In this document: one piece after another, positions 2,478 to 27,228 of the stretch
Layout: each line of letters begins with the position of its first letter
How positions within the stretch are numbered: position 1 is the stretch's first letter
Virus record (IMG/VR): IMGVR_UViG_3300021364_000750
Location: 1 to 28,734 of that record
Length of the DNA stretch: 28,734 nucleotides
DNA from: a virus
Direction: 5' to 3' (one strand)
Notes under the pieces: generated by a model
Told to the model about the DNA's origin: nothing
The model's database searches: none
What the model saw: the letters and a program-made list of their open reading frames with translations, nothing else
Made by a program: the position numbers and the translations under genes

Positions 2478-3050
2478 ATGGCAGGTCTATTTGAAAAATT
2501 ACAGAACGAATCTCCTAAGGAATTACAACAAAGGAGTTTTGATTCATTGGAATGGTTCAAAGACAACCTAAGATATGTAAAGTTAAGAGCTGACCAAACA
2601 CTAAGAGAAGGTGAAATAGTCACTCAATTAGAGTTAGGTAAAATGTATATGTATTTTTATGATGCAAAGAACAAAGATACATTACCTTACTGGGATAGAT
2701 TTCCTTTAGTCATACCAATTAGAAAGTATGCAACTGGATTTCTCGGTATTAACTTTCATTACATTGCACCTCGTTATAGAGTTTTATTCTTAGAAGCATT
2801 ATTTGAATACACAAACAATAAAGACTATGACGATACAACTAGACTTAGATTAACATATGAATTACTAAAGGGTGTATCAAGATTAAAGTATTATAAACCA
2901 TGTTTAAAAGAATATCTCTATGGTCATATCCGAAGTCAATTCAGTCTAGTCCCTCCACAATATTGGGAGATAGTTGCAATGTTGCCAACACAACAGTTTA
3001 ACGTAAATGCAAACAAAGTTTATGCAGATAGTAGAAGGAAAGTAATATGA
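2478..3050 (+). CDS. virion structural protein, marine T4-like family, 190 aa
   Basis: The protein has the pattern MYFYDAKNKDTLPYWDRFPL (residues 57-76), followed by GFLGINFHYI and a C-terminal DSRRKV, which I recall from conserved proteins in the tail gene blocks of marine T4-like phages. It has no membrane segment or enzyme motif. It overlaps the next gene by four bases (ATGA) and heads a collinear set leading to gp26 and the tape measure, so a role in baseplate or tail assembly is the best inference. There is no ribosome binding site before its ATG; a late-promoter-like CATAAATA sits seven bases upstream instead. Confidence 0.7.
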   Translation: MAGLFEKLQNESPKELQQRSFDSLEWFKDNLRYVKLRADQTLREGEIVTQLELGKMYMYFYDAKNKDTLPYWDRFPLVIPIRKYATGFLGINFHYIAPRYRVLFLEALFEYTNNKDYDDTTRLRLTYELLKGVSRLKYYKPCLKEYLYGHIRSQFSLVPPQYWEIVAMLPTQQFNVNANKVYADSRRKVI

Positions 3051-3859
3051 GTTTTAAAGGTGTCAACGATTTTATATCCTATTTCGATACGGGTGCAAGA
3101 CCCAATTACTACAATATTGAAATAAATTCTAATCCTAATTTAGGTGATTTTACATTTGGGAATGACGGACACAACCTTCGTTGTATAAGTGCTGCCTTCC
3201 CAGGCGTTGAAATAGGTGTCAACGAAGAAACAACTTTTGGAGCTCCACGTCAAGTCCCTGATGGAACAGTGAGTTATGATGGTGGACTTGCATTAACATT
3301 CCTATGTGATACAACTTTTTACGATAGAATTCTTATAGATGCATGGCAAAGATATATCTTTGAAGGAAATCCAACACTAAGTGCATACAATAGAGGTAAA
3401 GGAACAAAATTCCAACCCGTCATGAGATACATGGACGATTATTGTGGGACAATAACACTACAACAATTGAGTCAAGGTGGTAAACCAAGAATGCAATACG
3501 AGTTCAAAGACGTGTGGCCGATATCATATTCAGAACAAGCAGTTGCAAGTTCAAACGAAGCAGGTGGTATTATGGAGTTTGAGGTCACATTTGAATATAA
3601 AGATTTTAAAGTTTCTTATCCTAATGAAGCAGACGAACCAAGAGTCATTGAACCAAAAGACAATGGTGCAAAACAAGACCCATTAGGAAAAGGAAGTATT
3701 TTAGATGCAACACTTGATACACTCAATGTGTTGTCTAGGTTTAATCCAAAGGCTGGAGAATACCTAAATAAACTAAGTGGTCTTGAAGGCCAACTTACCC
3801 GTGGTAAGAACATCAGCAGAAAAATTGGTGGTCTTAACATCGGTGGTGGTGGTGATTAA
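3047..3859 (+). CDS. baseplate/tail tube-fold protein (gp48/gp54/gp19-like)
   Basis: The 270-residue protein begins MSFKGVNDFISYFDTGARPN, a phrase typical of tube-like proteins of marine T4-like phages, and has the tube-fold ending WPISYSEQAVASSNEAGGIM followed by EFEVTFEYKDF near residue 180. T4 gp48, gp54 and gp19 share this beta-barrel ancestry; they form the tube initiator complex and the tube. Its place in the hub/tape-measure block and its extra C-terminal Gly-rich tail (GGLNIGGGGD) favour a gp54- or gp48-type initiator over the bulk tube protein. AAGGAAAG is a good ribosome binding site before the ATG. Which of the three paralogues it represents is not settled here. Confidence 0.6.
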   Translation: MSFKGVNDFISYFDTGARPNYYNIEINSNPNLGDFTFGNDGHNLRCISAAFPGVEIGVNEETTFGAPRQVPDGTVSYDGGLALTFLCDTTFYDRILIDAWQRYIFEGNPTLSAYNRGKGTKFQPVMRYMDDYCGTITLQQLSQGGKPRMQYEFKDVWPISYSEQAVASSNEAGGIMEFEVTFEYKDFKVSYPNEADEPRVIEPKDNGAKQDPLGKGSILDATLDTLNVLSRFNPKAGEYLNKLSGLEGQLTRGKNISRKIGGLNIGGGGD

Positions 3860-3888: not shown

Positions 3889-4596
3889 ATGGCATTACCA
3901 ATACAGTCGACACCGACTTATAGAACAGTTTTACCAGTTAGTGGTCAAGATGTAGAATATCGACCATTTCTAGTAAAAGAACAGAACATATTAGTTCAAG
4001 CTAAAGAAGGTGCTGACGCAAAACAGACTATGCAATCTGTTAAAAAATTGCTACAAGCAGTGACTAATGATAAAGTAGTTATTGAGGATTTACCTACTAC
4101 AGACTTAGAATGGTTATTCATTCAAGTAAGAAAAGTATCTGTAGGAGATACGTCTAAATTAATGTTCCCATGCGTGAACAATCAGTGTCCCCATACTAAA
4201 GATGTGACACTTAATTTAGACGATATTGAACCTGTAGGAAATCTTCCTGAAGACTATACAGTCATGATTACTGACAAAGTAGGTTTGACACTAAGTGTTC
4301 CTACTGTTGAAGGAGTTGAGAAAGTTAGTGGACTAACTGAAGAATCAGCACAAACAGTAGAACTTATTAAAGAATCTATAGTAAACATTTTTGACGAAGA
4401 GAATGTTTATGAAGGTTCAGATTTGTCGAAAACAGAAAGGGACGAATTTGTGGACTCATTAACTTTCCCTCAGTTGGAACTTTTAGGAAACTGGTTTGAC
4501 CAACTTCCAAAATTATCAACTAGTTTAGAGTGGGATTGTGAAGAGTGTGGAACAAAGAATGAGCAGAAGTTAGAAGGAATTCAAAATTTTTTTTAA
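3889..4596 (+). CDS. 26: gp26-like baseplate hub assembly protein / tape-measure chaperone
   Basis: This 235-residue protein matches the T4-like gp26 family of marine phages: an N-terminal PFLVKEQNILVQAKEG at residues 26-41 and a split zinc ribbon, C95-x4-C100 and C217-x2-C220. In T4, gp26 and gp51 act in hub assembly around the gp29 tape measure, comparable to lambda gpG/gpGT. The start has GAGGAT upstream. The last codons are AAT TTT TTT TAA, inside a run of eight T. A -1 slip there bypasses the stop and adds 66 residues in a frame with gp51-like sequence (see the next two entries). Product identity is fairly secure, its exact biochemical role less so. Confidence 0.75.
   Translation: MALPIQSTPTYRTVLPVSGQDVEYRPFLVKEQNILVQAKEGADAKQTMQSVKKLLQAVTNDKVVIEDLPTTDLEWLFIQVRKVSVGDTSKLMFPCVNNQCPHTKDVTLNLDDIEPVGNLPEDYTVMITDKVGLTLSVPTVEGVEKVSGLTEESAQTVELIKESIVNIFDEENVYEGSDLSKTERDEFVDSLTFPQLELLGNWFDQLPKLSTSLEWDCEECGTKNEQKLEGIQNFF
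4587..4594 (+). promoter_or_regulatory. candidate -1 ribosomal frameshift site (T run before the gp26 stop)
   Basis: Eight consecutive T span the last two Phe codons and the first base of the TAA stop of gp26. In the gp26 frame this reads T TTT TTT followed by TAA, a perfect X XXY YYZ slippery heptamer with the stop codon next to it. After a -1 shift translation continues TTA ATA GCT and stays open for 66 codons. No strong downstream stem was obvious to me. Confidence 0.6.
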
Positions 4597-4793
4597 TAGC
4601 TCTTTCTCATGAAAGTGTGTTTAATCATTATAACACTAACTTTCAATTAATGCAACACCACAAGTATTCATTAACTGAATTAGACAATATGATACCTTGG
4701 GAAAGAGAGATTTACATTAAATTGTTAATGCAACATCTCAAAGAAGAGAAGTCTAGACAAGAGGCAGAAAATGCTAAATTGAAAAGACGATAA
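4593..4793 (+). CDS. 51: gp51-like extension, probably made as a gp26-51 fusion by -1 frameshift
   Basis: The -1 frame after the T run reads LIALSHESVFNHYNT, then NFQLMQHHKYSLTELDNMIP, then WEREIYIKLLMQHLKEEKSR and a charged tail. The YSLTELDNMIPWEREIY segment is characteristic of gp51-like hub assembly proteins next to gp26 in marine T4-like phages. The earliest ATG in this frame is at 4650 (47 residues) and has no Shine-Dalgarno sequence, and the sequence before it (ALSHESVFNHYNTNF) looks protein-like rather than untranslated. A 301-residue fusion made by slipping is therefore the simplest reading. The alternative is an independent protein from 4650. It lies 27 bases before the next gene, in the usual place of tail-chaperone extensions just ahead of the tape measure. 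Confidence 0.65.
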   Translation, partial: LIALSHESVFNHYNTNFQLMQHHKYSLTELDNMIPWEREIYIKLLMQHLKEEKSRQEAENAKLKRR

Positions 4794-4820: not shown

Positions 4821-5207
4821 ATGGCGGACACAATCATAAAGGAAAACAATACGACTAACGAAGTCGAAATTTCCTTAGACAAATATATGAAACTTATCGA
4901 CCAGTTAGATGAACAGGAAGATAAGATTAAGGAAATGCAAGAAGAGGCTAAGAAAGCTAGGTCACAACTTGCACCACCTAAAAGAAAATTCATGGATTTG
5001 TTTTTAGACGACAATGATATAAATGAGAAATCAATTATTGGTTTTATCTCATTTGCATTAATGACTGTATTTGGTATTTGTGATTTGGTCACTGCATTCG
5101 CAGGTCAAGACCTTGTAATCTCAGATACTATTTACACTTCATTTGTCGTTGTGACACTAGGTGCATTTGGTATTAGTGAAGCAGGAAAAGCCTTCGGCGG
5201 AAAATAG
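4821..5207 (+). CDS. small membrane protein with N-terminal coiled coil, 128 aa
   Basis: AAGGA precedes the ATG. Residues about 15-55 are highly charged and helical (SLDKYMKLIDQLDEQEDKIK), likely a coiled coil. Two hydrophobic segments follow: SIIGFISFALMTVFGICDLV near 72-91 and TIYTSFVVVTLGAFGI near 101-116. The gene sits between the gp26/51 pair and the tape measure, ten bases before the latter. A membrane-active protein packed with the tape measure, or one helping DNA entry across the host membrane, is possible, but this is only inferred from position. I do not know a named T4 counterpart. Confidence 0.75.
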   Translation: MADTIIKENNTTNEVEISLDKYMKLIDQLDEQEDKIKEMQEEAKKARSQLAPPKRKFMDLFLDDNDINEKSIIGFISFALMTVFGICDLVTAFAGQDLVISDTIYTSFVVVTLGAFGISEAGKAFGGK

Positions 5208-5217
5208 GAACGTATAA

Positions 5218-7665
5218 ATGGCTGACGAATTTAATAAGTCAATCGAACAACAAAAGAAAGAGTTCTCTAATGAACTTCAGGACGTTAATGCAAAGTTAAA
5301 GCCTGGATTTCAAAAGTTAATCAATTCTCTTGAAGAGGCTTCACCTCAGATTGCTAAGATTACTGCAGACTTTAGGGAATCCAGTAAGGATACCTTTAAG
5401 GGTGCATTGGCAACTAGTAAGTTAAAGAACCTCTCAGGAATCGTTGACAAATATATGTCGGGTGCTGAAGTTTCTGCAGAAGAAATGTCAAAACTTCAAA
5501 AAGAATTTACAGTAGAAGTTGACGGAGTTCAAAAAGGATTCAACTTCACTGGAATGAGAATCGCACAACAGTCATTTAATAAAACACAAGAAACTGTAAA
5601 CAAAATCGAAAAGGCAAAACAAGCTGCCTATCTAAAACAAACTCAAGATATAAGAGAAGAATTTAGGAAACAAGAAAAGGCATATGAAGCTGGAACGATT
5701 AATGCAGTCCAATTCGCAGAAGCACGTGCAACGTTTGAAGAAAAAAACAACGAAGCACAAAACAAAGTCAACGATAAGTATGACGCAGGTTTAGACTTTG
5801 AGAGAAAGAAACTTGAAGAACGTCAAACTAAACTACAATCATTTACAGACGACTACAAAGAAGGACTAGAAAGAGCAACCGATAATGCTGGATTACAAAA
5901 ATTCAGTGACGGAATAGACGAACTATTCGGTATTGATATACTTGGTTTTGCAGATAGTATGACCAAGAAGGTTAATGCAATCGGTGACGTTATGGGTTCT
6001 ATTGGTGGTGCATTAGGTGAAGCAGGTCAAGGACTCAAAGATAAAGTCGGTGGGTTCATGGGTGGAGTCAAAGACTTTTTCACACCCAAAGCAAAAGAAG
6101 GTGGTAAAGACGAAGGTGTCATTGGTGGTGCAATCAAAGGTAAAGCTGCTGGAATGGCAAAAGGAATGTCTGACAAAGCTGCAGACAAAGGTGTCGGATT
6201 ACCTAAAGGTTCAGGTAAGAGTGGTGGTTTCTTAGGTTCAATTGCAAACGGAGTCAAAAAATTTGGTGACTCTAAAGCATTAAAAGGTGCATTGACACTT
6301 GGTATACTTGGTGGAACAGTAGGATTACTTGCAATCGGACTACAACAATTTACTGGATTAGACTTCAAAACCATGTTAAAAGGTTTTGTTGCACTTGGTG
6401 CTTTAATATTATTTGCAAGACTTATCGGTAAAGCAACATTCGGAATTCTTAGAGGTGCCCTTGCAATCGGTGTATTGGGTGCAGCCTTAATCCCATTTGC
6501 ATTTGCACTTAACTTAATGAAAGACGCAGGTTTAGGAACTATACTAACCATTGCAGCTGGACTTACTGTTCTAGGTGTTGCAGCTGCAATACTAGGTGGT
6601 ATGCTACCATTAATGATAATGGGTTCCATTGCAATCGGGGCCTTAGGTGCAGCTCTAATTCCATTTGCATATGCAGCTGAAATGGCAGCTGGTGCATTCG
6701 GTATGTTTATTAATGACATTGTTAAGATTAGTTTGGTCGATGGTGCAAACTTAATTCTAGTTGGTCTTGGATTAGCAGCTATTGGTGCTGGTCTAGTTGC
6801 AATGACTGGTGGTAATCTAATAGGAAGTTTATTAGAAGGAATCGGAAGTCTATTCGGTGCAAAATCTCCTATGGAGAAAGTCACTGACTTTGCAAAAGGT
6901 TTACAAGACGTAGACATGACTAAGATTACTCAACTAGGAAATGCATTCGAAAAACTACAAAGTGCTGAAGGTGCAATTAAGTTGTTTAGTGATGTTGATG
7001 CAAAGGCAAGAGGTCTAAAAAGGTTTGCAGAATCCATAGACGAACTAACAGAAGCACTGGTGAGATTAGAATCAGGTGTTCCTAAAGAAGATAGTTGGTG
7101 GGATAAAATGACTTCTTTTGCTGGTAAACTTATGGGAACCACTGAAGAAGAAAGACTTGCTGAACAAGCACAAAAATCACAACAAAGACTTAACAATGGT
7201 GTGTCAATGGGTGGTGCATATTACTCAGACGAAGAATTAGACGAAATGACTTCGGGTGGAACTGTTCCAATGAGACAACCTAGTGGAATGTCATTGGAAA
7301 TGGCAGAAGTCAAAGCAGAACTTCAAGGTCAAAGACAGGCAGAAGAAATTAGATTATCTAGATTGCAAGAAATGATGTTAGAACATAACATTGTTGCAAG
7401 ACAAAAATTCGGAATACCACACTTATATTCACCTGAAGAAATTGCAGCTGCTGGAGTTCAAGACCAAGGTGGTCAAATTGCTAATGCAAGACAAGAAGTG
7501 TCTGCAACTGCAACTGCTGGAAATCAAATTGCAATGGCAAGTAATCAAAACATTGTAAACAACGGAAGAACTTACAATAATCTAAACAAACCTCAAACCA
7601 ATAATGACGACTATGCAGTCTATAAGTATGGTGGTGGTATGGGGTATGGAGAAGAAGACTTCTAG
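5218..7665 (+). CDS. 29: tape measure protein (gp29-like baseplate hub subunit)
   Basis: At 815 residues this is the longest protein here. The N-terminal third (1-230) is charged and helical, with likely coiled coils. Residues about 255-345 are Gly/Lys-rich. Residues about 355-555 are a long series of hydrophobic Gly/Ala-rich segments (LGILGGTVGLLAIGL, GALAIGVLGAALIPFAFAL and near copies), as in membrane-inserting tape measures. The C-terminus is polar and Asn/Gly-rich. Context is decisive: it follows gp26/51 directly. T4 gp29 is about 590 residues, so this tail may be longer if the length rule holds. The internal hydrophobic repeats at about 412-429 and 468-484 look like duplicated hairpins. 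The ribosome binding site is AGGAACG. Confidence 0.85.
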   Translation: MADEFNKSIEQQKKEFSNELQDVNAKLKPGFQKLINSLEEASPQIAKITADFRESSKDTFKGALATSKLKNLSGIVDKYMSGAEVSAEEMSKLQKEFTVEVDGVQKGFNFTGMRIAQQSFNKTQETVNKIEKAKQAAYLKQTQDIREEFRKQEKAYEAGTINAVQFAEARATFEEKNNEAQNKVNDKYDAGLDFERKKLEERQTKLQSFTDDYKEGLERATDNAGLQKFSDGIDELFGIDILGFADSMTKKVNAIGDVMGSIGGALGEAGQGLKDKVGGFMGGVKDFFTPKAKEGGKDEGVIGGAIKGKAAGMAKGMSDKAADKGVGLPKGSGKSGGFLGSIANGVKKFGDSKALKGALTLGILGGTVGLLAIGLQQFTGLDFKTMLKGFVALGALILFARLIGKATFGILRGALAIGVLGAALIPFAFALNLMKDAGLGTILTIAAGLTVLGVAAAILGGMLPLMIMGSIAIGALGAALIPFAYAAEMAAGAFGMFINDIVKISLVDGANLILVGLGLAAIGAGLVAMTGGNLIGSLLEGIGSLFGAKSPMEKVTDFAKGLQDVDMTKITQLGNAFEKLQSAEGAIKLFSDVDAKARGLKRFAESIDELTEALVRLESGVPKEDSWWDKMTSFAGKLMGTTEEERLAEQAQKSQQRLNNGVSMGGAYYSDEELDEMTSGGTVPMRQPSGMSLEMAEVKAELQGQRQAEEIRLSRLQEMMLEHNIVARQKFGIPHLYSPEEIAAAGVQDQGGQIANARQEVSATATAGNQIAMASNQNIVNNGRTYNNLNKPQTNNDDYAVYKYGGGMGYGEEDF

Positions 7666-17417: not shown

Positions 17418-18605
17418 TTATGGATTATTTTTAAAAAACTCTTCCCAAACTTGTCTTGGATAAACTCCGTCAAGTTCCATTTTTCCACCACTTAATTCTT
17501 CTACTAATTTAGAAGGATTGTGAAAACCAAAGATATTACACCTGTTAGTTTTTACTGGGTTATGGTAATAGACTTCATTAAGAAGTGTCATAGTGTTATC
17601 TTCGTCTGAGATAAAAGTCTGAAACTTATCTCTTAGAAATTTTAACTCACTGGTTGGGTCGGGTGTTCCAAAGTGAATAATCATATTCCAACTAATTAGA
17701 CTAGGGTCAATTGCACCCTCTAATTTACTATCCCAATCTCTTACGGCTTGTCCGTATTGAACACCAAAACCATATAGAACTTTATCAAAGTTTACACCAT
17801 ATGCAATCCATCTACTAACTGCATTGTCCTCATACATATTTGATTTATCTCTCAATACGTCTAAGAGGTGAATACCTTTCTTAACAGTTGAGAGTGTTTT
17901 CTGACCAGTTATTGATTCTGTAAGTTCAATAATCAATGAAGAAATTTCTCCTTTTTTAGAAGAGTTGTATCTTTTATTTGCAATGAAACTGATTCTATCT
18001 CCAATTTCTTTTCCAAACTTTTCTTTATCTTTTTGAGTTGGATTTCTTGGTAATGCAATTTCTCTTTCTTCAACTAACTGTCTGATAATCTCAACCACGT
18101 CTTCCCATGATATAGGGTCTACAGTTAAATCAAGTGAATTAAGTCTTCCACCGATTTGAATTAACTTAGCCATAGAGAAGTTCTTAGTTGCACGGAACTT
18201 ATGAACGATTCTATTTTCTACGTTAGTTTCATTTAATAAAATAGTATTGTTAGTGTTTCCACCAAAGACACATACTGGAATATCATTTTCGTCATAGACT
18301 ACGTGTAGACATTTTCCTCTCAAATCAAAACCACTATTTTTCATGTCTTGTTTAATAGTGTTGTATTTTGAGTTGGAAGATTTCCTAAACTTCTGTTTCA
18401 TTAACTTAGTTTGTTTATTGTTAATGACAACAGATTCCTCAAGGATTGTATCCTCGTATTCTATACCCATGTCGGGGAAAACGAAAAACTCGGGGTGAGT
18501 TGTTTTATTGAAAACGGACTTATGTAAGTCCAAGTGTGATTCCGTAAATTCGACTAGATTACTCAAGTCTACTTTATACGGATTTGTTATATTATGTATA
18601 ACCAT
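17418..18605 (-). CDS. large conserved protein of unknown function, 395 aa
   Basis: CGGAGATAATT precedes the ATG. Residues about 90-140 (FDLRGKCLHVVYDENDIPVC, then VFGGNTNNTILLNETNVENR) resemble the core of ParB-type or DndB-like folds, where a GxNT motif follows a beta strand. The rest is helical, with RFISFIAN-type segments and a polar C-terminus; no membrane segment. It has its own sigma70-like promoter about 100 bases upstream. The ParB-like resemblance is weak, so function remains unassigned. No partner gene next to it gives a hint: tRNA genes follow and a small protein precedes. Confidence 0.75.
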   Translation of the reverse strand: MVIHNITNPYKVDLSNLVEFTESHLDLHKSVFNKTTHPEFFVFPDMGIEYEDTILEESVVINNKQTKLMKQKFRKSSNSKYNTIKQDMKNSGFDLRGKCLHVVYDENDIPVCVFGGNTNNTILLNETNVENRIVHKFRATKNFSMAKLIQIGGRLNSLDLTVDPISWEDVVEIIRQLVEEREIALPRNPTQKDKEKFGKEIGDRISFIANKRYNSSKKGEISSLIIELTESITGQKTLSTVKKGIHLLDVLRDKSNMYEDNAVSRWIAYGVNFDKVLYGFGVQYGQAVRDWDSKLEGAIDPSLISWNMIIHFGTPDPTSELKFLRDKFQTFISDEDNTMTLLNEVYYHNPVKTNRCNIFGFHNPSKLVEELSGGKMELDGVYPRQVWEEFFKNNP

Positions 18606-18701
18606 AATTATCTCCGTTATGTATTCGACTACAATGTCTCATACGTTTGTTATGTCTCAATCAATAAGAACTACAATGTTTTTATTGACGACATAGTATA
18701 T

Positions 18702-18730
18702 ATTATACACTAACCTCTAAGATATGTCTA
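18702..18730 (-). promoter_or_regulatory. sigma70-type promoter for the 395-residue gene
   Basis: TAGACA (18730-18725) and TATAAT (18707-18702) on the - strand with a 17-base spacer. The start would be near 18695, giving about 90 bases of leader before the ATG at 18605. The -35 box overlaps the stop codon of the gene upstream and a hairpin that looks like a + strand terminator. Confidence 0.6.
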
Positions 18731-18741
18731 GAGGGTTTTTT
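18714..18741 (+). terminator. intrinsic terminator-like hairpin pointing rightward (antisense)
   Basis: CCTCTA (18714-18719) pairs with TAGAGG (18729-18734) around a 9-base loop, followed by G and six T (18736-18741), the form of an intrinsic terminator on the + strand. All nearby genes are on the - strand, so it would stop antisense transcription. Read on the - strand, the hairpin is followed by TTAG and no T run. Confidence 0.4.
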
Positions 18742-18976
18742 GAATTTCATCTAACTCTTGGATTTTCTTATTGATAATGTCAACTCGATTAGGCCAGTAG
18801 ATGTAATCTTTGTCTGAGTCTTTTGCAAGGTTCTCTAACAAAGGTCTAATAAAGTTATCTAAGTTATTGATAACTTCAGTAGCAGTTGTGGTCTTCTCTA
18901 CAATCTTTGTATCGACAGAGGCAAGTTCCTCTGCGTCCATTGCAGTAAAACCGAAATCGTTGTATTCTATACTCAT
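18728..18976 (-). CDS. small acidic protein, 82 aa, directly behind a late promoter
   Basis: Reads MSIEYNDFGFTAMDAEELAS, then a helical stretch KTTTATEVINNLDNFIRPLL, and ends IIKKIQELDEIQKTL-like (N-I-N-K-K-I-Q-E-L). No domain recognised, no Cys. The ATG is five bases after an exact TATAAATA and has no ribosome binding site, so the mRNA may start at the ATG itself. A late virion or assembly protein is a fair guess from the promoter. Confidence 0.65.
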   Translation of the reverse strand: MSIEYNDFGFTAMDAEELASVDTKIVEKTTTATEVINNLDNFIRPLLENLAKDSDKDYIYWPNRVDIINKKIQELDEIQKTL

Positions 18977-18981
18977 AGTAT

Positions 18982-18989
18982 TATTTATA
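18982..18989 (-). promoter_or_regulatory. T4-type late promoter TATAAATA, five bases before an ATG
   Basis: Exact TATAAATA on the - strand followed by ATACT and then ATG at 18976. In T4 late promoters the octamer spans about -13 to -6, so the first transcribed base would be the A of the ATG. It overlaps the last codons of the SDR gene. Confidence 0.65.
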
Positions 18990-19584
18990 CTTCTTGATTA
19001 GGATACCTTATGTATCTTTCTAATTCTTTTAAATCTTGTTTATCACTTTGAACTTCACTATAGTTTGCTCTATGTTGCATTGTTATTTCGGGAAACTCTA
19101 CAGAAGGATATGCAGTGATTAACTTGAACACTAAGTGTGCAATATCATTCTTTGCAAGACTAGGAAGTTCGTCATGGTCAATCAATCCTAAGTTCAGTGT
19201 AGTCATTTTATATTTCTTTTTAGAGTTGTAAGTTAGATTATTTGCAAGGTGATTGAGTTGTGCTTTCTCACTTGCATAGACATAACCTTTAGATATGTTT
19301 GGTTGACTTGCACGACTAGAGAAGTTGATAATCATTTTACTTCCTTCGTCTTTCCAAGCTTCATGTGCAATTGATAGAATCTTTGTTTGGTCTTGGTGTG
19401 CAAAATTTATCAATACGTCACAAGGACTATGTCCATTGAATATCCAACAGTTCTTTCCGTTTGCAGTTATGTCCTCACAACGAATTGACGTGACTGTATG
19501 GGTTTGACCAGCAGTTGGAGTTGCTTCTATAACGTCTTTGATTGTTTTTGCAAGACCACTACTTCCTGTTATTGCTATTCTCAT
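18985..19584 (-). CDS. short-chain dehydrogenase/reductase (SDR), 199 aa
   Basis: A Rossmann start MRIAITGSSGLAKTI (nucleotide loop residues 7-13), an NFSS strand end at 87-90 (active-site Ser region) and Y103-ASE-K107 (YxxxK) give the SDR catalytic set. It is shorter than typical SDRs (about 250), lacking much of the C-terminal substrate part. It overlaps the radical SAM gene by 26 bases. The two may act in sequence on one small molecule, for example a sugar or a modified base, but the substrate is not visible. Confidence 0.8.
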   Translation of the reverse strand: MRIAITGSSGLAKTIKDVIEATPTAGQTHTVTSIRCEDITANGKNCWIFNGHSPCDVLINFAHQDQTKILSIAHEAWKDEGSKMIINFSSRASQPNISKGYVYASEKAQLNHLANNLTYNSKKKYKMTTLNLGLIDHDELPSLAKNDIAHLVFKLITAYPSVEFPEITMQHRANYSEVQSDKQDLKELERYIRYPNQEV

Positions 19585-20488
19585 AATATTTTCTCACTAT
19601 ATCGAAAGAGGGTTTCCCAAAGAGTGACCCGTCTACACTACACTTATTACAAGGAGATTGACTTCTATCTCCCTTCATTAATTTCTTTCTAATCTTTGTC
19701 ATAGGTTTAGAGAACCATACGTCATGTAAAGACATAGTCAATAGATTACCTACAACGTGTTCTCTTCCCCAATCATTACTACAGAAGAGAACGTCACCAT
19801 TCCAATCAACAAACATTTTATAGAATGGATAGTGACATGGTTTACCTTTTAGATTTTCTATAGTATCGTCTTCAACACCAATCCAATCAATAACACCACT
19901 TCTATTATTTAGTATCAATCCATGTTTTTCAAAATCACCCCAATGCATTCTGAATTTATATTGGTCTTCTCTTATACGTGCTTCTGACAACATAGTGTCG
20001 AAGTGTTCCATTTGTTCGGGGCCGTCATACAGATTGATATACAACTGGTCGAGTCCACTACGAAAAAGTTTCTTGAGATATTCTACGTCTAACTTATCAC
20101 CATTCGTATTACACTCTAGTGTTGCTTGTGGTAATTCTACGTGGAATGCTTTTACAATTTCTGCAAAGTTTGGATTCAATAAGTTCTCACCGAATCCACT
20201 AAAAGATATTTTACCTTGGTATCCATTGTCTGCTAATTCTTCTGCAATGGTTTCAGCACCCTTAATTGTAAGGTGGAGATTCCTGTTGGGAAATACTGCT
20301 GGGTCATGTCTTGGACAAAAGACACATGTCCGATTGCACAACTCAGTAGTATTAATTTCAATTGTAAGAATTGAGTCAAGGGGTTTATCACCTCTTACTT
20401 CGTTGAAGTGTTTCTGTTCCTGTTCTCTCCTATGTTCAAGAAAATCGAACTGGTCAACTGCTGTAATTGGGATATTTCTTTGTTCCAT
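19559..20488 (-). CDS. radical SAM enzyme with SPASM-type C-terminal cysteines
   Basis: The 4Fe-4S/AdoMet motif is C51-NRT-C55-VF-C58. SGFGENLLNP (97-106) is the expected GGEP-like strand. Near the C-terminus C218, C236, C280 and C283 (KPCHYPFYKMFVDWNGDVLF, then CSNDW and PCNKCSVDG) form a SPASM/twitch-type auxiliary cluster. Enzymes of this kind modify peptides, sugars or small molecules through a 5'-deoxyadenosyl radical. The partner SDR overlaps downstream and an unknown beta protein lies three bases upstream. Phage examples are uncommon outside marine T4-like genomes as far as I know. Target unknown. Confidence 0.85.
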   Translation of the reverse strand: MEQRNIPITAVDQFDFLEHRREQEQKHFNEVRGDKPLDSILTIEINTTELCNRTCVFCPRHDPAVFPNRNLHLTIKGAETIAEELADNGYQGKISFSGFGENLLNPNFAEIVKAFHVELPQATLECNTNGDKLDVEYLKKLFRSGLDQLYINLYDGPEQMEHFDTMLSEARIREDQYKFRMHWGDFEKHGLILNNRSGVIDWIGVEDDTIENLKGKPCHYPFYKMFVDWNGDVLFCSNDWGREHVVGNLLTMSLHDVWFSKPMTKIRKKLMKGDRSQSPCNKCSVDGSLFGKPSFDIVRKYYENSNNRK

Positions 20489-20491
20489 GGT

Positions 20492-20902
20492 TTAACAGAT
20501 TGAAACCTTGAGGTGTCTCTCTGTTCCTGTAGCTTTTTCACTTTGGTATTCATAACGAATTTTATCTCCTATTTTAAAATTGCAATAATCGTTGGGAAGT
20601 CTTATAAACTTTGAACAAGTTAAATCGTCAAGTTCTACACTCTTTGGATTTCCGTCAACTTTATAATAATATGTAGGGGTTTTAAGAAGGTTGGGTTTGT
20701 CTAGTGTAAGACATGATATGAAAAGATTATCGTCTTCCCAATAAACATTGATTTCGTCTTCGTATAAAAATCCAATCTTCATGCAATAGACATAAGGGAT
20801 ATCTAAACGTATCCCTTCTTCTATATTGTAAATTGGACTATAAGGGGTTAATGAAAAGACTTCTGAGTCTTTAGAAATAACCTCCGTCTCTCCTATCATC
20901 AT
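20492..20902 (-). CDS. hypothetical beta-rich protein, about 136 aa
   Basis: The frame is open from 20935, but the ATGs at 20902 and 20899 shorten the overlap with the acidic gene and are my choice; no clear ribosome binding site decides it. The protein has IYNIEEGIRLDIPYVYCMKI, YWEDDNLFISCLTLDKPNLL, and ends with FKIGDKIRYEYQSEK, a pattern of short strands that suggests a small all-beta domain. Not recognised. It lies between the acidic protein and the radical SAM gene, with a three-base gap to the latter. Confidence 0.6.
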   Translation of the reverse strand: MMIGETEVISKDSEVFSLTPYSPIYNIEEGIRLDIPYVYCMKIGFLYEDEINVYWEDDNLFISCLTLDKPNLLKTPTYYYKVDGNPKSVELDDLTCSKFIRLPNDYCNFKIGDKIRYEYQSEKATGTERHLKVSIC

Positions 20903-22340
20903 CGTCTTCTTCACCTTTAGTGGTTTCAGTTGCACTTATAAATTCATCTGATTCTTGAAGAGATTCGATAAGTGATTCAGTTTGCACTGCAATCGATTCA
21001 ATCATTTCTTCTTTAGTGTCATTGGTTGACACTTCAAAGTTTAGACCTTCTGCAGTTTCTTTGATTTTCTTTTTAGTCATTCCCCTTAGTTCGTCTGCAC
21101 TTGGGATAACTAATTCGTCAAACTCTTCTTCCTCTTCAACCTTTGCATCGTCAATCTTCTTCTGAACAGCTTCTATCATTTCTTCTTCTGAAGCATAAGT
21201 GTTAATCTTCTGTTCTTCTTTGATTGGTGCTTCGATTGTATCACCACTTGTTAGAGGTCTAACATTTGTTTTAGTAATTGGAATACTTGCTGGTTTAGCA
21301 TATGTTGGTTCAGTCTTTACGTCTTCTTCTGCAACCTTTAATTCTGCACCACCATCTTCAGTTGGTGTTTCTACTAGTTCTTCTTCGACTCTATCAACTT
21401 CTGCATAGAAGTCTTCAATACCTTTTGCATCTTCGGGAACTGGTAATTCGATAGTAATAGTTTCGTCTTCTATTGGTAAATCAAATCCGTCTTCTTCTGT
21501 AGACTCATTACCGAATACCATTTCTTCGTCTGCAACTTCTGTTTCAGATTGTTCTTCCCACTCTGAGAATGCTTCTTTTGTTTCTTCAACTTTAGATTGC
21601 AACTCTTCGTCTGCAGTAAATGGAACTGTAGTTTCTGATTGAGGAACGTATCCGTCTGAAATTGATTGAACTTCTGCAACACTTGGTTCAGATTGTTCTA
21701 CTGGTTCTTCGGGATTAAGGAGTCTAGCCATTTGAAATGCTTTAGACGTTTGTTTTGGTTCTCCTTGTTTACCCTTTTGGACTTTAGTTTCGGGTATGGA
21801 CACTCCATGTTCTTGTGCAAGTCGAGCAGCTTCTTCTGCAGACAATTCTACAAATCCGTCTTGATTAAGTTGTCCTTCTTTGACACCAATCACTCCGTCA
21901 TTATTTAAGTCAACATTGATACCATGTGAAGCAAGGATTGCTTCTAGTTGTGCAACTTTAAGTTCTGCATCTTTTCTTTGTTTACGTTGGTCACGAATCT
22001 TATCAGTCAATACAGCTTTGTCTGCTTCAATCTGAGCTTCTTTTGCAAGTCTGTCTGCTTCTTGAAGTTCAACTAATTGTTGTTGTGCAACTTGAACTGC
22101 TTGATTGTAATCTGTTAATCCTTTATCGATTTCATCTCTTACTGCAATCACAGCGTCGAGTTCTTCAATCTTAATAAGACCACTCTTTAAATGTAATTGT
22201 AATAACGTAGAAACAGCACTTGCAGATTGAGGATTAATTCCTATCTGATAGTTTGCGATACGTTGTTGAACTTTTTGTAGTTCTGTTAATTCGGGAACAA
22301 CTTGTTCACTTGCGAATTCTGATTTCACTTCATTTACCAT
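20871..22340 (-). CDS. long acidic protein with EF-hand-like loop and HeH/SAP-like end
   Basis: The 489-residue protein has a long N-terminal coiled coil (about 60-150), then DLNNDGVIGVKEGQ at about 165-178, close to a Ca2+-binding EF-hand or dockerin loop, then some 200 residues of low-complexity Glu/Thr/Ser sequence, and near 415-445 ELRGMTKKKIKETAEGLNFE, resembling an HeH or SAP-type helix-extended-loop-helix DNA-binding motif. The very end is EEDDDDRRDGGYF. It looks like a scaffold or DNA-associated virion protein, not an enzyme. Its Shine-Dalgarno GGAG lies inside a perfect 12-base palindrome. Function unknown. Confidence 0.75.
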   Translation of the reverse strand: MVNEVKSEFASEQVVPELTELQKVQQRIANYQIGINPQSASAVSTLLQLHLKSGLIKIEELDAVIAVRDEIDKGLTDYNQAVQVAQQQLVELQEADRLAKEAQIEADKAVLTDKIRDQRKQRKDAELKVAQLEAILASHGINVDLNNDGVIGVKEGQLNQDGFVELSAEEAARLAQEHGVSIPETKVQKGKQGEPKQTSKAFQMARLLNPEEPVEQSEPSVAEVQSISDGYVPQSETTVPFTADEELQSKVEETKEAFSEWEEQSETEVADEEMVFGNESTEEDGFDLPIEDETITIELPVPEDAKGIEDFYAEVDRVEEELVETPTEDGGAELKVAEEDVKTEPTYAKPASIPITKTNVRPLTSGDTIEAPIKEEQKINTYASEEEMIEAVQKKIDDAKVEEEEEFDELVIPSADELRGMTKKKIKETAEGLNFEVSTNDTKEEMIESIAVQTESLIESLQESDEFISATETTKGEEDDDDRRDGGYF

Positions 22341-22349
22341 ATTTAAAAT

Positions 22350-22410
22350 ACTCCATGGAGTCCTACTCGACTAGAAAGTTTTACACATTGGAAAGAATTA
22401 AAAACTTTCC
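22350..22410 (-). promoter_or_regulatory. palindrome over a ribosome binding site, and two alternative stems
   Basis: ACTCCATGGAGT at 22350-22361 is a perfect palindrome containing the GGAG (22351-22354 on the - strand) that lies ten bases before the ATG at 22340. Further upstream two stems compete for the same bases: GAAAGTTTT 22374-22382 with AAAACTTTC 22401-22409, or GGAAAG 22390-22395 with CTTTCC 22405-22410. This could set translation of the acidic protein. The rest of the 109-base gap shows nothing more definite. Confidence 0.4.
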
Positions 22411-22449
22411 TAATTAATATGTATAGTCTCTGAGGACATTAATATTTAT

Positions 22450-22968
22450 TTATTTTATGTGTTCGGGAAAGGCCTTTTGTGCAATATCTTTAGTGATATT
22501 TTTAAAGGGCCAAACCTTATCTTTTATTAAATCCATTAACTCTGCTTCTTTAGCAGGTATCCCTTCTAACAGTTGAATCCACATTGTCTCTCTACGAGTT
22601 GGTGCAACTTCTTCTGTCACAAAGTATTTGAATAACCTTACTTCAAATCTAAGACTTGTTTGTGCAAGGTCTGACGCAGGTGCATCGTCTTGATTGTAAG
22701 GTGTCTTACCTTCGGGTAGTGTAGACTTAATATTGTCGTCAAATACCCATTGCAATAAAAATCTTACTGCACCATTTCTGTCATTAAACACTCTAAGACC
22801 ATTGACTGCATTGTCTTCGTTTTCTTGTGCAACTATATTAGCTTGACAAAAAATCTCATACACGTCTGCATCTTTGGTTAACTCTTTTCTTTCAGTAATG
22901 AGTTCTATCTTAGGTTTATTGGGAGCACCCTTAGGTCTACCCCTTCCTCTTTTTTTTGTTTCCGTCAT
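22450..22968 (-). CDS. conserved protein with AT-hook-like N-terminus, 172 aa
   Basis: The N-terminus KKRGRGRPKGAPNKPK contains RGRPKG, the core of an AT-hook that binds the minor groove of AT-rich DNA; the rest is an unrecognised alpha/beta or helical domain (VNGLRVFNDRNGAVRFLLQW, then RRETMWIQLLEGIPAKEAEL). It overlaps RNase H by four bases. In T4 a double-stranded DNA-binding protein (DsbA) neighbours RNase H, but no sequence resemblance is claimed. A DNA-binding role in replication or late transcription is a reasonable inference. Confidence 0.7.
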   Translation of the reverse strand: MTETKKRGRGRPKGAPNKPKIELITERKELTKDADVYEIFCQANIVAQENEDNAVNGLRVFNDRNGAVRFLLQWVFDDNIKSTLPEGKTPYNQDDAPASDLAQTSLRFEVRLFKYFVTEEVAPTRRETMWIQLLEGIPAKEAELMDLIKDKVWPFKNITKDIAQKAFPEHIK

Positions 22969-23801
22969 AACGAAAAATCTCCTACATTGTCTAACAACTC
23001 ATTTAATCTATGAGTCCTTAGGTAATCAAACACTTTACCTCTTACTGGTTCGGTGTTTTCAAATTCACTTAAAATTCTATCTTCAATATCCTTAGGGATA
23101 AAATCGAAATCAATTAATGTTTGATTTCTTAGATAGTTCCGATAGTATTTATCGTCATTTTCAATCGATATTCTGAGATACTTATCTTTGATTGGTTTAC
23201 GTAATGGTGTCTGTCTAATACCTTCGACCATACAATCGTCACTGGATAAGATATTAGGAATCCCGTCTGACTTATCCCCAGTGAGGATATGTTCCTTTAG
23301 GAATAAGGACGGGTCTTGACATACGACTTGTTTGTTTAGGTTTGGTGACCATTGTATTACATTTTCTAATGATTGTAATTGTTGGAAGTCTTTATCACCA
23401 CTGATTATAAGTATGTCTTCCTTTATATGTTTTGATAATACTGCAATGATATCGTCTGCTTCACACCTCTCAACATACATGTATCTATATGGGAAGTTAT
23501 CTCTGAGTTCGTCTTTAATAACTTGAAGTGTATTAAAGATTACACCCCAGTCTTTATCGTCTTCGTCTCTGAGTTTCTTTCTGTTTGCTTTGTAGTTAGG
23601 AAAGAACTCTCTTCTCCATGGGTTAGCAGCGTCCGTGCAAAGAACTATTTCTCCATAGTCACCAGCATATTTCTTTTGATAATTCCGAATGGAATTAATA
23701 ATCATTGGTCTAAGTTTGTCTTCACTTAGTTGTCCGTCATTCAACTTGAGTTGAACCATCAGACCAGCAATTATGGTCTGAGTAAAATCTATAAGTATCA
23801 T
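22965..23801 (-). CDS. rnh: RNase H / 5'-3' flap exonuclease (T4 rnh, FEN family)
   Basis: The 278-residue protein has the FEN/RNase H acidic residues: D5 in MILIDFTQ, D57 in CTDAANPWRREFFPNYKANR (57-74), E114-A-D-D in CEADDII, SGDKDFQQL at 134-142 and TGDKSDGIPN at 174-183. T4 RNase H removes RNA primers and adjacent DNA of lagging-strand fragments with gp32. Only the N-terminal part (about 1-180) is strongly conserved. Overlaps of four bases on both sides place it in one operon with the AT-hook-like and 234-residue proteins. Confidence 0.92.
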   Translation of the reverse strand: MILIDFTQTIIAGLMVQLKLNDGQLSEDKLRPMIINSIRNYQKKYAGDYGEIVLCTDAANPWRREFFPNYKANRKKLRDEDDKDWGVIFNTLQVIKDELRDNFPYRYMYVERCEADDIIAVLSKHIKEDILIISGDKDFQQLQSLENVIQWSPNLNKQVVCQDPSLFLKEHILTGDKSDGIPNILSSDDCMVEGIRQTPLRKPIKDKYLRISIENDDKYYRNYLRNQTLIDFDFIPKDIEDRILSEFENTEPVRGKVFDYLRTHRLNELLDNVGDFSL

Positions 23802-24502
23802 TTAATCACTTTTATTAATAATGTATTTTTGGTCAACAAATCGTTTCCGTCTTTTAGTTTAGAACGAGGTATCTCGTCTATAAAGTTTTTTGCAATTATA
23901 TTACCACCTCTATACAGTCTATCAAGAAGTTTCTCATCTGTCAAGGTCTTTTCTTGACATGAATCATAATCAATGATTCGAGAACCTTTTACGGATAGAC
24001 CACCAAAGGTATCGAACTTAGTTAACTTCTTAGACGAAGTGTTATAAGTGAACAAGGTTCTTGCACGTATGATTTCTTCGGGGTCAACAGATTGGAATGA
24101 CTTATACTTTGGTAAGTATGGAAGTTTCCTTACTAACTGTTTAGGTGTTTTGATTCTTGGTTTTCTAATAGGTTTATATTCGTCTACATATTTTTCAATA
24201 TCAGATTCAAAACCTTTAAGTGTCTTAACAACTTTTTTCTTTTGTGGTGCAGTTAGAAAGTTATAAGCTTCGTCTAACTGTTCACAACCTTCTTTGTTTT
24301 CTAACTCATAAACTATTTCTTCAGTAAATCCTTTCATATAATTTACTACACGTCCACTGAAGTCTAATTGTTTGAGATACTTATACATAGAAAAGTTTGT
24401 TGACTTCTTTTCCATTAAGTAATCTATCTGAGCCTCAACTTCTACCAAGGCAAGTTCTGCCTTGTTTTGCATACGTTCTTGAATTGTTGGTTTTGTATTC
24501 AT
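23798..24502 (-). CDS. conserved phage protein, 234 aa, start directly after a promoter
   Basis: Basic and helical N-terminal half, with a PIRKPRIKTPKQLVRKLPYL stretch (113-132), then a beta-rich YNTSSKKLTKFDTFGGLSVK segment (about 155-174) and RGSRIIDYDSCQEKTL-like residues. It resembles conserved proteins next to rnh in other marine T4-like phages, but I know no function. The ATG follows the -10 box of a strong promoter by seven bases and has no ribosome binding site, so the mRNA would be leaderless or nearly so. Confidence 0.7.
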   Translation of the reverse strand: MNTKPTIQERMQNKAELALVEVEAQIDYLMEKKSTNFSMYKYLKQLDFSGRVVNYMKGFTEEIVYELENKEGCEQLDEAYNFLTAPQKKKVVKTLKGFESDIEKYVDEYKPIRKPRIKTPKQLVRKLPYLPKYKSFQSVDPEEIIRARTLFTYNTSSKKLTKFDTFGGLSVKGSRIIDYDSCQEKTLTDEKLLDRLYRGGNIIAKNFIDEIPRSKLKDGNDLLTKNTLLIKVIK

Positions 24503-24509
24503 AAAACAA

Positions 24510-24539
24510 AGTATAACAAAAAGTTTAAGTCACTGTCAA
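24510..24539 (-). promoter_or_regulatory. sigma70-type promoter, phage early family (copy 3)
   Basis: TTGACA (24539-24534) and TATACT (24515-24510) on the - strand with an 18-base spacer beginning GTGAC and containing AACTTTTTG. The ATG at 24502 is seven bases after the -10 box, so transcription probably begins at that ATG. The promoter begins one base past the stop of the RimK-like gene. Confidence 0.8.
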
Positions 24540-24540
24540 G

Positions 24541-25953
24541 CTAGTCCTCTTCAGAAGTATCGTGTTTGTTTGTCAATAGGAATTTCCTAGACGGGTTAAT
24601 CATTAAGTTTGCACGATTCATAAAATCTCTATTTGCAAGAAAAGGGATTTTACCTCTTTGGTCTAAACTGACTTCCTGTTCATATATAGTATTTAAGAAG
24701 TTTAACTCACACATTACAACTGGTCTTGTCTCAGCTGGTTTGATTAATGTAAGTTCTCTGACCAAAGGTTTCTTATACTTTTTACCATTCCTTTCAAAGT
24801 GAACAACCTTTCCTTTAACCTCATAAGAGTCTGCGTGAAGGGCACAAGCGTTTGCACTGTTCCCAGTGTCTAGCTTAACAGTCATCGTCTCACCATCGAC
24901 CTCTATGGTCTCGAGAACACCACATTCAGTTGCACTCTTCTTCCAAATATTTCTATCGAAGTAATCGTCTATGATTGTCTCACAAACTTCTTCACCAAGT
25001 GCTTCTGAGATTCCTTGTGACCCAGGCGACTGGTTGACCTCTAAAATAAAAGGTGCATCTTTGTCTCTGTTATCAGCAGGAATAAAGTCAACACCAACCC
25101 ATTGACCATTTACTGATTTTGCAGCGATAAGACATGTTTCTTTTTCTAAATCTGTTAGTTCTATTTCTTCTGCTTCTGCACCTTGTGAAATATTAGAACG
25201 GAAGTCGTCAATGATTTTCTTACGTTTCATTGCACCGATAATTCTTTTATTGTTTATCATAACACGGACATCATATTCCATGTCGATATATTCCTGTAAA
25301 AGGATATCACAATTAGGGTCAATCTTATACACTAGACTCACTGTAGACTGCAGAGAACGTTCCGTTTCAACAAGCAATACACCAACCCCTTTTGCACCTT
25401 GAAGTGTCTTTAGAACCATTGGGAATTCGTTGTCGAGTCTTTCAGCAGCTAAGTCTACAGTCTCGGGGTCTTCGTTTGGAACCAAAACTGTTCGAGGTTG
25501 GTTCATTCCGATTTCCTGTAATCTCAAATACGTTCTAAACTTATCTGCACATACTTCGATACACTCCCTTGAATTGACTACAGGGAATCCGTATCTTTCT
25601 ATTTGTGAAATTAAATCTAAGTATGAATCTTTAGTTGTGACTGCACCACGAACCATAACAAGTGTATCTGCATCTAATTCAAAACCTTTCTTATCGTCTT
25701 GGTTATGAATTGTGATAACACCATTGTCGTCACGTTCAATATATGCACCATTCACTTTAACACTATACACTTCACAACCACGTTCTTTTGCAATGTTATA
25801 AAGTTTACTTGAAGTTGAACTGGGTTTCTTTACTACGGGTTTATCGGCATTCTTCTTTGTCCTTTTCACCATGCGACGTTCTGCAATGACAACCAAACGA
25901 TATGGTTTATCATTAGTCTTCTCTTCCGAGATTAACTCATTGAACGATAACAT
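24541..25953 (-). CDS. RimK-type ATP-grasp ligase fused to RimB/retropepsin-like domain
   Basis: The start at 25953 has GAGGA eight bases upstream; an ATG at 25968 also exists. Residues about 15-130 are the pre-ATP-grasp domain; 175-345 is the ATP-grasp fold, with FPMVLKTLQGAKGVGVLLVE, LLQEYIDMEYDVRVMINNKR and FILEVNQSPGSQG (metal-binding E and N). These match RimK, which adds Glu to ribosomal protein S6. From about 350 a second domain, VKLDTGNSANACALHA (a DTG catalytic motif), RPVVMCELNFL and SLDQRGKIPFLANRDFM, matches the ATP-dependent zinc protease/RimB family of retropepsin-like proteins found with rimK in bacteria. A single chain joins ligase and protease-like parts. The target could be S6 or another protein tail. 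Confidence 0.85.
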   Translation of the reverse strand: MLSFNELISEEKTNDKPYRLVVIAERRMVKRTKKNADKPVVKKPSSTSSKLYNIAKERGCEVYSVKVNGAYIERDDNGVITIHNQDDKKGFELDADTLVMVRGAVTTKDSYLDLISQIERYGFPVVNSRECIEVCADKFRTYLRLQEIGMNQPRTVLVPNEDPETVDLAAERLDNEFPMVLKTLQGAKGVGVLLVETERSLQSTVSLVYKIDPNCDILLQEYIDMEYDVRVMINNKRIIGAMKRKKIIDDFRSNISQGAEAEEIELTDLEKETCLIAAKSVNGQWVGVDFIPADNRDKDAPFILEVNQSPGSQGISEALGEEVCETIIDDYFDRNIWKKSATECGVLETIEVDGETMTVKLDTGNSANACALHADSYEVKGKVVHFERNGKKYKKPLVRELTLIKPAETRPVVMCELNFLNTIYEQEVSLDQRGKIPFLANRDFMNRANLMINPSRKFLLTNKHDTSEED

Positions 25954-25957
25954 TCTT

Positions 25958-26296
25958 TTATTCCTCATGTTTAATTAACTGAACAAATTTTTCTGCGTCC
26001 ATAACCACTAAAGGTTTATGACGATTCCTTTTTATTACTACAAGGGGTTCATACCCTTTGCAATTTTCAGAAGCTTGTTCGTATGCTTTCCATACATTTA
26101 CTGCTTCTTGATTCTTACATTCTACACTAAAAGGAAATAACTGTCTAGATTGTTTTCCAAGAATAATGTCCTCACCTTGAGAACCCATAGGTCTTGATTC
26201 TATATCTTCAGAATCTAATCCTAGTGTTTCGACTAGAACGTTTGCAAACCACTGTTGTAGTTTACGACCTTTAGCTTTTGCTGATGATGTTTTCAT
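25958..26296 (-). CDS. small PD-(D/E)XK nuclease-like protein (Holliday-resolvase type)
   Basis: The ATG at 26296 (112 residues) is chosen; a GTG at 26308 in frame is also possible. GSQGEDIILG and FPFSVECKNQEAVNVWKAY hold the G-x-D and E-x-K spacing of the VRR-NUC/HJC-type nuclease fold, with a Q in the following helix (YEQASENCKGY). C-terminal PLVVIKRNRHKPLVVMD supports the fold. It could resolve branched DNA or repair ends. It overlaps the Fe-S carrier gene by 26 bases and contains the ribosome binding site of the RimK-like gene at its 3' end. Confidence 0.75.
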   Translation of the reverse strand: MKTSSAKAKGRKLQQWFANVLVETLGLDSEDIESRPMGSQGEDIILGKQSRQLFPFSVECKNQEAVNVWKAYEQASENCKGYEPLVVIKRNRHKPLVVMDAEKFVQLIKHEE

Positions 26297-26597
26297 TAAA
26301 TTGCACACTCACTCCACAACCACAACTGGATTGTTCATTTGGATTTATAAATTTAAAAAATTCATTTAATCCTTCTTTAATATAATCTAGTGTCATACCT
26401 TCTAAAAAAGGTTGACTGTTCTTATCTATAAGAAAAGAAAACTTACCATAGTCTATGACTTCGTCTCCGTCTTTTATAGTATCTTCTGCAAAAACATACT
26501 CAAATCCAGCACAACCACCACCAGTCACACCAAGTCTTACTGACTTAACATTTCTTTCTAATAGTTTTTGTATTGCAATGTCCGAAACTTCTATCAT
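26271..26597 (-). CDS. A-type iron-sulfur cluster carrier (HesB/IscA/ErpA family)
   Basis: The 108-residue protein has the three family cysteines: C29 in VTGGGCAGFEY and C92/C94 in SSCGCG, 63 residues apart as expected. It also keeps the KFSFLIDKNS strand region. A-type carriers pass Fe-S clusters to apo-enzymes. Here a client could be the radical SAM enzyme of this phage (one Fe-S cluster in the core and one in the C-terminus), or a host enzyme. The ATG follows TATAAATA by five bases and has no ribosome binding site. It overlaps the nuclease-like gene downstream by 26 bases. Confidence 0.92.
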   Translation of the reverse strand: MIEVSDIAIQKLLERNVKSVRLGVTGGGCAGFEYVFAEDTIKDGDEVIDYGKFSFLIDKNSQPFLEGMTLDYIKEGLNEFFKFINPNEQSSCGCGVSVQFNENIISKS

Positions 26598-26602
26598 AGA
26601 AG

Positions 26603-26610
26603 TATTTATA
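26603..26610 (-). promoter_or_regulatory. T4-type late promoter TATAAATA, five bases before the Fe-S carrier ATG
   Basis: Exact TATAAATA on the - strand, then CTTCT, then ATG at 26597. Same geometry as at 18982-18989. It lies three bases after the stop of the carbamoyltransferase C-terminal gene and would start the transcript at the A of the start codon. Confidence 0.65.
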
Positions 26611-26613
26611 CAA

Positions 26614-27228
26614 TTAGCTTAAGTCTTGAGGTGGGTAATTTGTTCTCTTGTCTTTACACAACTCGTAAGGAATTGCAATCTCTTGGTCTTCGGGGATATA
26701 TAAATGATTTATCTCAGAACGATTACATGTATCGATTGCATCAAAGATATTCTCTACCAGTGCTTCACCACCTAGATTAAATGAAGTGTTAAAGATAATT
26801 GGTGTCCCAGTGATTTCACCAAACTTTTTAATTAAATCGTAATAGTTTTTATTCTGTTCACGATTGACTGTTTGAATTCTACAGGTTCCGTCTGCATGAA
26901 CCAAACTAGGAATCTCGTCATATGCTTTTTGTTTCGCTTGAATTGCAAAAGACATATTCGGTGAAGACTTGAGTTGCAACATTTCAAAATATTCATGTGC
27001 ATGTTCTTCTAAGATACTTCCTGCGAATGGACGATAGTCTTCTCTACGTTTGACTGAGTTAACAATTTGTTTTGCATGAGAATTACGTGGGTCAAATAAT
27101 ATACTACGATTACCTAATGCACGAGGCCCCCACTCTGACTGACCTTGAAAGATTGCAACAATTTGTCTGTTGTCAATCAGTTCATGCAAAACGTCATCTA
27201 AATTTCTATGTATTCTCGTTATTATCAT
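26614..27228 (-). CDS. carbamoyltransferase C-terminal (YrdC-like) subunit
   Basis: The 204-residue protein is the C-terminal domain of NodU/TobZ-type carbamoyltransferases: QSEWGPRALGNRSILFDPRN (residues 30-49), VKRREDYRPFAGSILEEHA (58-76) and TGTPIIFNTSFNLGGEALV (139-157) are its core. That domain makes the carbamoyl-adenylate transferred to a hydroxyl by the N-terminal Kae1-like half. Normally both are one chain of about 570 residues. Here it is a separate ORF overlapping its partner by 23 bases in a different frame. A weak GTGAG about ten bases before the ATG could serve as ribosome binding site. Confidence 0.85.
   Translation of the reverse strand: MIITRIHRNLDDVLHELIDNRQIVAIFQGQSEWGPRALGNRSILFDPRNSHAKQIVNSVKRREDYRPFAGSILEEHAHEYFEMLQLKSSPNMSFAIQAKQKAYDEIPSLVHADGTCRIQTVNREQNKNYYDLIKKFGEITGTPIIFNTSFNLGGEALVENIFDAIDTCNRSEINHLYIPEDQEIAIPYELCKDKRTNYPPQDLS

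Follow-up and report, generated by a model that had tools for sequence, protein, structure and literature searches.

The locus analyzed here raises the question of how a gp51-like reading frame, which overlaps the 3' end of the gp26 gene in the -1 frame, is expressed, i.e., as a separate protein, as an extension of gp26 or not at all. The locus lies in a window of 28,734 nucleotides (the whole stretch of DNA that was analyzed, positions 1 to 28,734 of IMG/VR virus record IMGVR_UViG_3300021364_000750), in which the original prediction, made from the sequence alone, had proposed that gp26 is linked to the gp51-like frame by a programmed -1 frameshift. This is the best-supported reading, and both conservation checks came out in its favor; we consider it very likely that two forms of a tail assembly chaperone are produced from the locus through -1 ribosomal frameshifting between gp26 and gp51. 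The features on which the analysis centers are given in Table 1.

Table 1. Positions of the features at and around the gp26/gp51 locus in the window
Feature	Position	Strand	Evidence or remark
Tail tube protein (gp19-like), upstream neighbor	3047..3859	+	phrog_45 tail tube, 1e-31
gp26, putative TAC-N, short product, 235 aa	3889..4596	+	Pfam, phrog, AlphaFold2 model
-1 open frame	4563..4793	+	post-slip part 4593-4790 is a 66-codon gp51-like C-terminal domain, putative TAC-C
Shine-Dalgarno-like AGAAGGAA, possible stimulator, 7 nt upstream of heptamer	4572..4579	+	family-wide anti-SD peak
Slippery heptamer T_TTT_TTT in gp26 register	4587..4593	+	T_TTT_TTN in 205/205 relatives
Predicted stem-loop, possible stimulator, 16 nt downstream of heptamer	4610..4645	+	4610-4621 pairs with 4632-4645
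128-aa ORF, coiled-coil-like N-terminus, hydrophobic C-terminus	4821..5207	+	sequence; between chaperone frames and tape measure candidate
815-aa ORF, tape measure candidate	5218..7665	+	position, length, Ala/Gly-rich hydrophobic stretch

In its own frame, gp26 ends with CAA AAT TTT TTT TAA. The run of T comprises 8 nt (4587-4594) and the TAA stop (4594-4596) is placed 0 nt after the heptamer, in agreement with the original prediction, which had gp26 ending T TTT TTT TAA inside eight T. The -1 frame is likewise open for the predicted 66 codons past the slip, over the whole supposedly intergenic part; translated from the slip it reads FFLIALSHESVFNHYNTNFQLMQHHKYSLTELDNMIPWEREIY..., and the peptide that would span the slip in the predicted fusion is EGIQNFFLIALSHESVF. 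The earliest ATG of the -1 frame is found at 4650, and the only start before it is a GTG at 4617. No Shine-Dalgarno match was detected at either of these starts (duplex energies +2.1 and +1.3 kcal/mol, respectively), which for the ATG had been noted before, and initiation at ATG 4650 would remove 19 conserved residues of the gp51-like domain. Both the heptamer and long runs are rare in the window; the main ORFs, which amount to 8,294 codon steps, contain in-frame T_TTT_TTN only twice, and the whole window contains two A or T runs of at least 8 nt. The second in-frame heptamer (T_TTT_TTA) is located in an ORF on the minus strand (26271-26597) and is a chance occurrence, as the -1 frame there extends for only approx. 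10 codons; this ORF resembles, from a CGCG motif read off the sequence, an IscA/ErpA-like A-type iron-sulphur carrier.

Profile comparisons identify both reading frames. gp26 matches Pfam PF12322 (T4_baseplate) over residues 9-235 of 235 (E 6.5e-51) and phrog_150 (baseplate hub; E 1.2e-53), while for the -1 frame a match to phrog_634 (baseplate hub assembly catalyst, i.e., gp51) was obtained with an E value of 1.1e-27, so that the gp51-like segment proposed for this frame is indeed present. The -1 frame also matches the final 57 positions of phrog_150, which indicates that some members of phrog_150 hold both parts in one protein. T4_baseplate is matched only once in the 28.7 kb of this fragmentary record, and instead of a separate gene 51 of the T4 type with N and C domains, the window carries the C domain by itself in the -1 frame. 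Two pairs of Cys in gp26 (CVNNQC and CEEC) suggest a zinc-ribbon-like element.

The conservation of this arrangement was assessed in related loci gathered from 34 viral contigs found with gp26, 80 more found with a gp26 profile, 80 found with a gp51 profile and 11 named isolates. gp51 was found with gp26 in 205 of 206 loci, the remaining locus being on a truncated contig, and in all 205 the gp51 domain was in the -1 frame and T_TTT_TTN stood in the gp26 register ahead of the gp26 stop; alignment of the T run across relatives, which had been put forward as a check, thus favors frameshifting. In a non-redundant set of 140 loci (clustered below 80% gp26 identity) the heptamer was again present in every locus, with C (66 loci), T (60), A (13) or G (1) as its last letter. 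The gap between the heptamer and the gp26 stop never exceeded 27 nt; it was 3 nt in 84 of these loci and 0 nt in 47, the window being of the latter type. Cultured relatives that share the arrangement include P-SSM2, Syn33, S-CAM1 and pelagiphage Mosig. Ten of twelve further named isolates (23 isolates in all) also carried the heptamer, the exceptions being Aeromonas phage AS-gz, in which the genes are arranged as in T4, and Vibrio phage K469. The opposite pattern, in which gp51 has a start and ribosome binding site of its own and the T run is not conserved, was rare and appeared only in part, in K469 alone among the 23 isolates.

Both the heptamer and the -1 frame show the marks of selection. 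All 140 loci share both the T that precedes TTT and the first TTT codon, as compared to approx. 58 loci expected by codon usage; the residue ahead of the slip codons varies (Ser, Asn, Asp, Ala, Gly), whereas its codon always ends in T. Given codon usage, this pattern has a joint probability of 1e-54 with clustering at 80% identity and of 1e-8 for 23 loci below 40% identity, although these values treat loci as independent and therefore overstate the strength of the signal. The 60 nt past the slip, which precede the ATG that usually comes first, show protein-like evolution in the -1 frame. In this stretch pN/pS was 0.15 in the -1 frame as compared to 1.6 and 2.9 in the other frames, a large contrast between values that were obtained from non-independent sequence pairs, and no stop was found in the -1 frame among 154 unique sequences, while frame 0 contained a stop in all 154. 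The codon-level check thus bears out the claim that protein-like sequence precedes ATG 4650.

Four other readings were weighed against a programmed frameshift. As homopolymers are prone to error, the T run could conceal a sequencing or assembly mistake, with the two frames truly forming one ORF; however, the same -1 relation is found at 205 loci from many separate assemblies, isolates with TTTTTTC included, and these independent assemblies contradict an error, which we regard as extremely improbable. The -1 frame could also be a decayed remnant next to a T run that arose by chance and, in fact, it is short and startless. Conservation at 205 loci, the low pN/pS and the lack of stops in 154 unique sequences nevertheless contradict chance and decay, which makes this the least credible explanation of all. 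Expression of gp51 as a separate gene, through initiation or termination-reinitiation near the gp26 stop, has more to recommend it, as gp51 is entered in databases as a gene of its own for most isolates examined, as 17 of 140 loci contain a stop-start overlap through which initiation could be coupled, and as K469 seems to depend on such an overlap. On the other hand, the first ATG in the window lacks a Shine-Dalgarno sequence and would drop conserved residues, and a gp51-frame start with a Shine-Dalgarno energy of -4.5 or better was found in just 2 of 140 loci (as compared to 96 of 135 for the ATG of gp26 itself), leaving 138 loci without one. Moreover, independent starts would need no in-register T_TTT_TTN in every genome, and in T4 gp51 the C domain is fused to an N domain. 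We therefore judge a separate gp51 to be improbable.

Transcriptional slippage, in which RNA polymerase would stutter on the eight T so that mRNAs gain or lose bases and gp26 is read into gp51, appears improbable to the same degree. The window does contain eight T, and bacterial polymerases slip on runs of approx. 9 A or T (PMC5009743). In 80 of 140 relatives, however, the site is T_TTT_TTC, TTA or TTG, mostly with six T, and the register of the heptamer is exact; a homopolymer alone would also leave the codon register, the upstream Shine-Dalgarno-like peak and the downstream folding unexplained. That the last T may be replaced by C, A or G while the codon register is kept favors tandem tRNA slippage by the ribosome over stuttering by the polymerase.

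Under programmed ribosomal frameshifting, we infer that the majority of ribosomes translating gp26 would terminate at the TAA at 4594 and release the 235-aa short form. In a minority, with both the P and the A site occupied by tRNA-Phe at T_TTT_TTT (4587-4593), the tRNAs would slip back by one base and re-pair on TTT TTT, and reading would continue with TTA ATA GCT ... to 4793, giving a predicted long form of 301 aa to which the gp51-like domain is added. If the two forms act like those of lambda gpG/gpGT, the tape measure protein may be coated by the short one, while the long one may recruit tail tube subunits. One published observation argues against efficient slippage, i.e., U_UUU_UUU was much less shifty than A_AAA_AAG in tests in E. 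coli (Atkins et al. 2016, PMC5009743).

The sequences flanking the heptamer include two possible stimulators of slippage. Across the family, a peak of anti-SD pairing is located 6-8 nt before the heptamer, where energies of -4 kcal/mol or lower are reached in 84-85% of 140 loci, and this Shine-Dalgarno-like element is stronger than in synonymous shuffles (mean z -0.91, p ~1e-14 without tree correction). In the window itself, AGAAGGAA is no stronger than its synonymous shuffles (-5.7 vs -5.9). The Glu codon at the Shine-Dalgarno-like GAGG is GAG in 53 of 89 cases, as compared to 26% elsewhere (p = 2e-11), and the (E)GL protein motif accounts for part of the peak. Downstream of the heptamer, the hairpin predicted in the window has an MFE of -9.4 (z -2.0); its 12 bp show two-sided change in 3 pairs and thus weak covariation. 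RNAalifold on 18 near relatives recovered only a 4-bp helix and, given this result and the weak covariation, we rejected one common conserved hairpin. An excess of RNA folding is seen in the family only just after the heptamer (z ~-1.0, as compared to ~-0.1 elsewhere), and it holds against synonymous shuffles (-1.12 +/- 0.15). The Shine-Dalgarno-like element and the hairpin probably raise the rate of slippage. This putative layout is similar to that of E. coli dnaX, which combines an upstream Shine-Dalgarno-like element, a slippery heptamer and a downstream stem-loop, but differs from it in that the heptamer is A_AAA_AAG there and U_UUU_UUN here, and in that the frameshift here would yield the longer product.

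Synteny, domain architecture and published identification together point to a chaperone role for gp26 and gp26-gp51. Databases name gp26 a baseplate hub subunit or an assembly chaperone, and most of the named proteins that it matches strongly in BFVD belong to the baseplate hub or baseplate of other T4-like phages. The AlphaFold2 model of gp26 is confident (pLDDT 90). A Foldseek comparison of this model to 350,542 chains of solved structures gave nothing significant; two chains of the HK97 chaperone (2ob9_A and 2ob9_B) ranked 10 and 14, with non-significant E values of 2.4-2.8 and a TM of approx. 0.4 by target. A search of solved structures with the gp26 sequence gave chance-level matches only. 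The original prediction had placed the two frames before the tape measure gene. The frames are present, and two genes further along lies the 815-aa ORF, a candidate tape measure by position, with no homologue found in PHROGs or in 50,697 phage records; the intervening ORF (4821-5207) has no confident family in Pfam or phrogs. Elsewhere in the window, many possible sugar or surface-modification genes were observed (224-1551 on the plus strand and 17418-28429 on the minus strand), including a HAD hydrolase, a cytidylyltransferase, a radical SAM protein, an S6-glutaminyl-transferase-like ATP-grasp protein and a Nol-like carbamoyltransferase.

The abstract of the 2022 study by Vladimirov, Gautam and Davidson is said to describe frameshifting as conserved in several T4-like groups and T4 as using genes 26 and 51. 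As relayed by two later papers (PMC10885494 and PMC12846349), that study (Virology 566:9-15) identified gp26 as TAC-N, the short chaperone, and gp26-gp51 as TAC-NC, its long form; the PRFect paper (PMC10885494) attributes to it the observation that some T4-like phages have a short gene and a fused long gene and no frameshifting, and in the paper on phage Adele (PMC12846349) it is the reference given for TAC-N genes of T4-like phages having poly-T frameshift signals. As represented in these papers, the published conclusion is the same as the one reached here and concerns the same gene family, the T4 group having a separate fused gene. The lineage differs, as gp26 of the window, which comes from a marine T4-like virus, shares at most 36% identity with any isolate in the collection, and the window is thus a well-supported new example, from a lineage distant from its nearest cultured relative, of a device that has already been described. 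The earlier suggestion that T4-like marine phages kept or re-evolved this device is supported as far as its presence is concerned, but has to be amended in that it had been published in 2022 and that T4 itself lacks it.

Atkins et al. (2016, PMC5009743) described the tail chaperone frameshift as a widely conserved feature of phages with long tails, "except T4". The likeness to lambda gpG/gpGT is one of analogy; the slippery sequence of lambda differs from the T_TTT_TTN found here. In Vandenendeviridae and Andersonviridae, as described for phage Adele (PMC12846349), the -1 frame is conserved through the "intergenic" stretch before the tape measure gene, as it is here before the tape measure candidate, and the slip motif is likewise poly-T (GTTTTT); the phage families are different. 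In T4, gp26 (208 aa) consists of just the N domain and is encoded on the strand opposite gene 51, while in gp51 (249 aa) residues 1-201 match T4_baseplate and residues 200-244 align to the family of the -1 frame in the window (E 2e-5). T4 thus holds both domains of gp51 in one ORF and uses two genes on opposite strands and no frameshift, unlike the window.

A different departure is seen in Vibrio phage K469, where gp26 and gp51 (locus positions 1660-1905) lack the heptamer and the junction reads ACG CTT TTT GCG TAATG; judged from this sequence, K469 has apparently switched from frameshifting to a TAATG stop-start overlap. Phages phiM12, XZ1, AF3 and RHph_I34 have the heptamer as well as an ATG that overlaps the gp26 stop, and might produce free gp51 besides the fusion. 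We lean towards the broader view that T4-like tail chaperone genes share a dnaX-style cassette, made up of a Shine-Dalgarno-like element 6-8 nt upstream, U_UUU_UUN and a lineage-specific downstream hairpin, in which codon choice would be selected on both sides of the heptamer and would tune the ratio of short to long product; T4 would have swapped this cassette for two genes, and K469 may have swapped it for a stop-start overlap.

These findings also bear on annotation. A joined gp26-gp51 gene was annotated in none of the 22 isolate records with a -1 gp51, where gp51 was either given as a separate ORF, often cut at a downstream ATG, or absent; it is unannotated in S-CAM1, LPCS28, Aeromonas G2 and ACP17, while several other records give it in a shortened version. 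This amounts to a systematic annotation fault for gp51 in records of T4-like isolates. Overall, the conservation of the slip site and of the -1 frame suggests that putative recoding underlies production of the tail chaperone in a large set of T4-like phages, both marine and other, and that T4 would be the exception.
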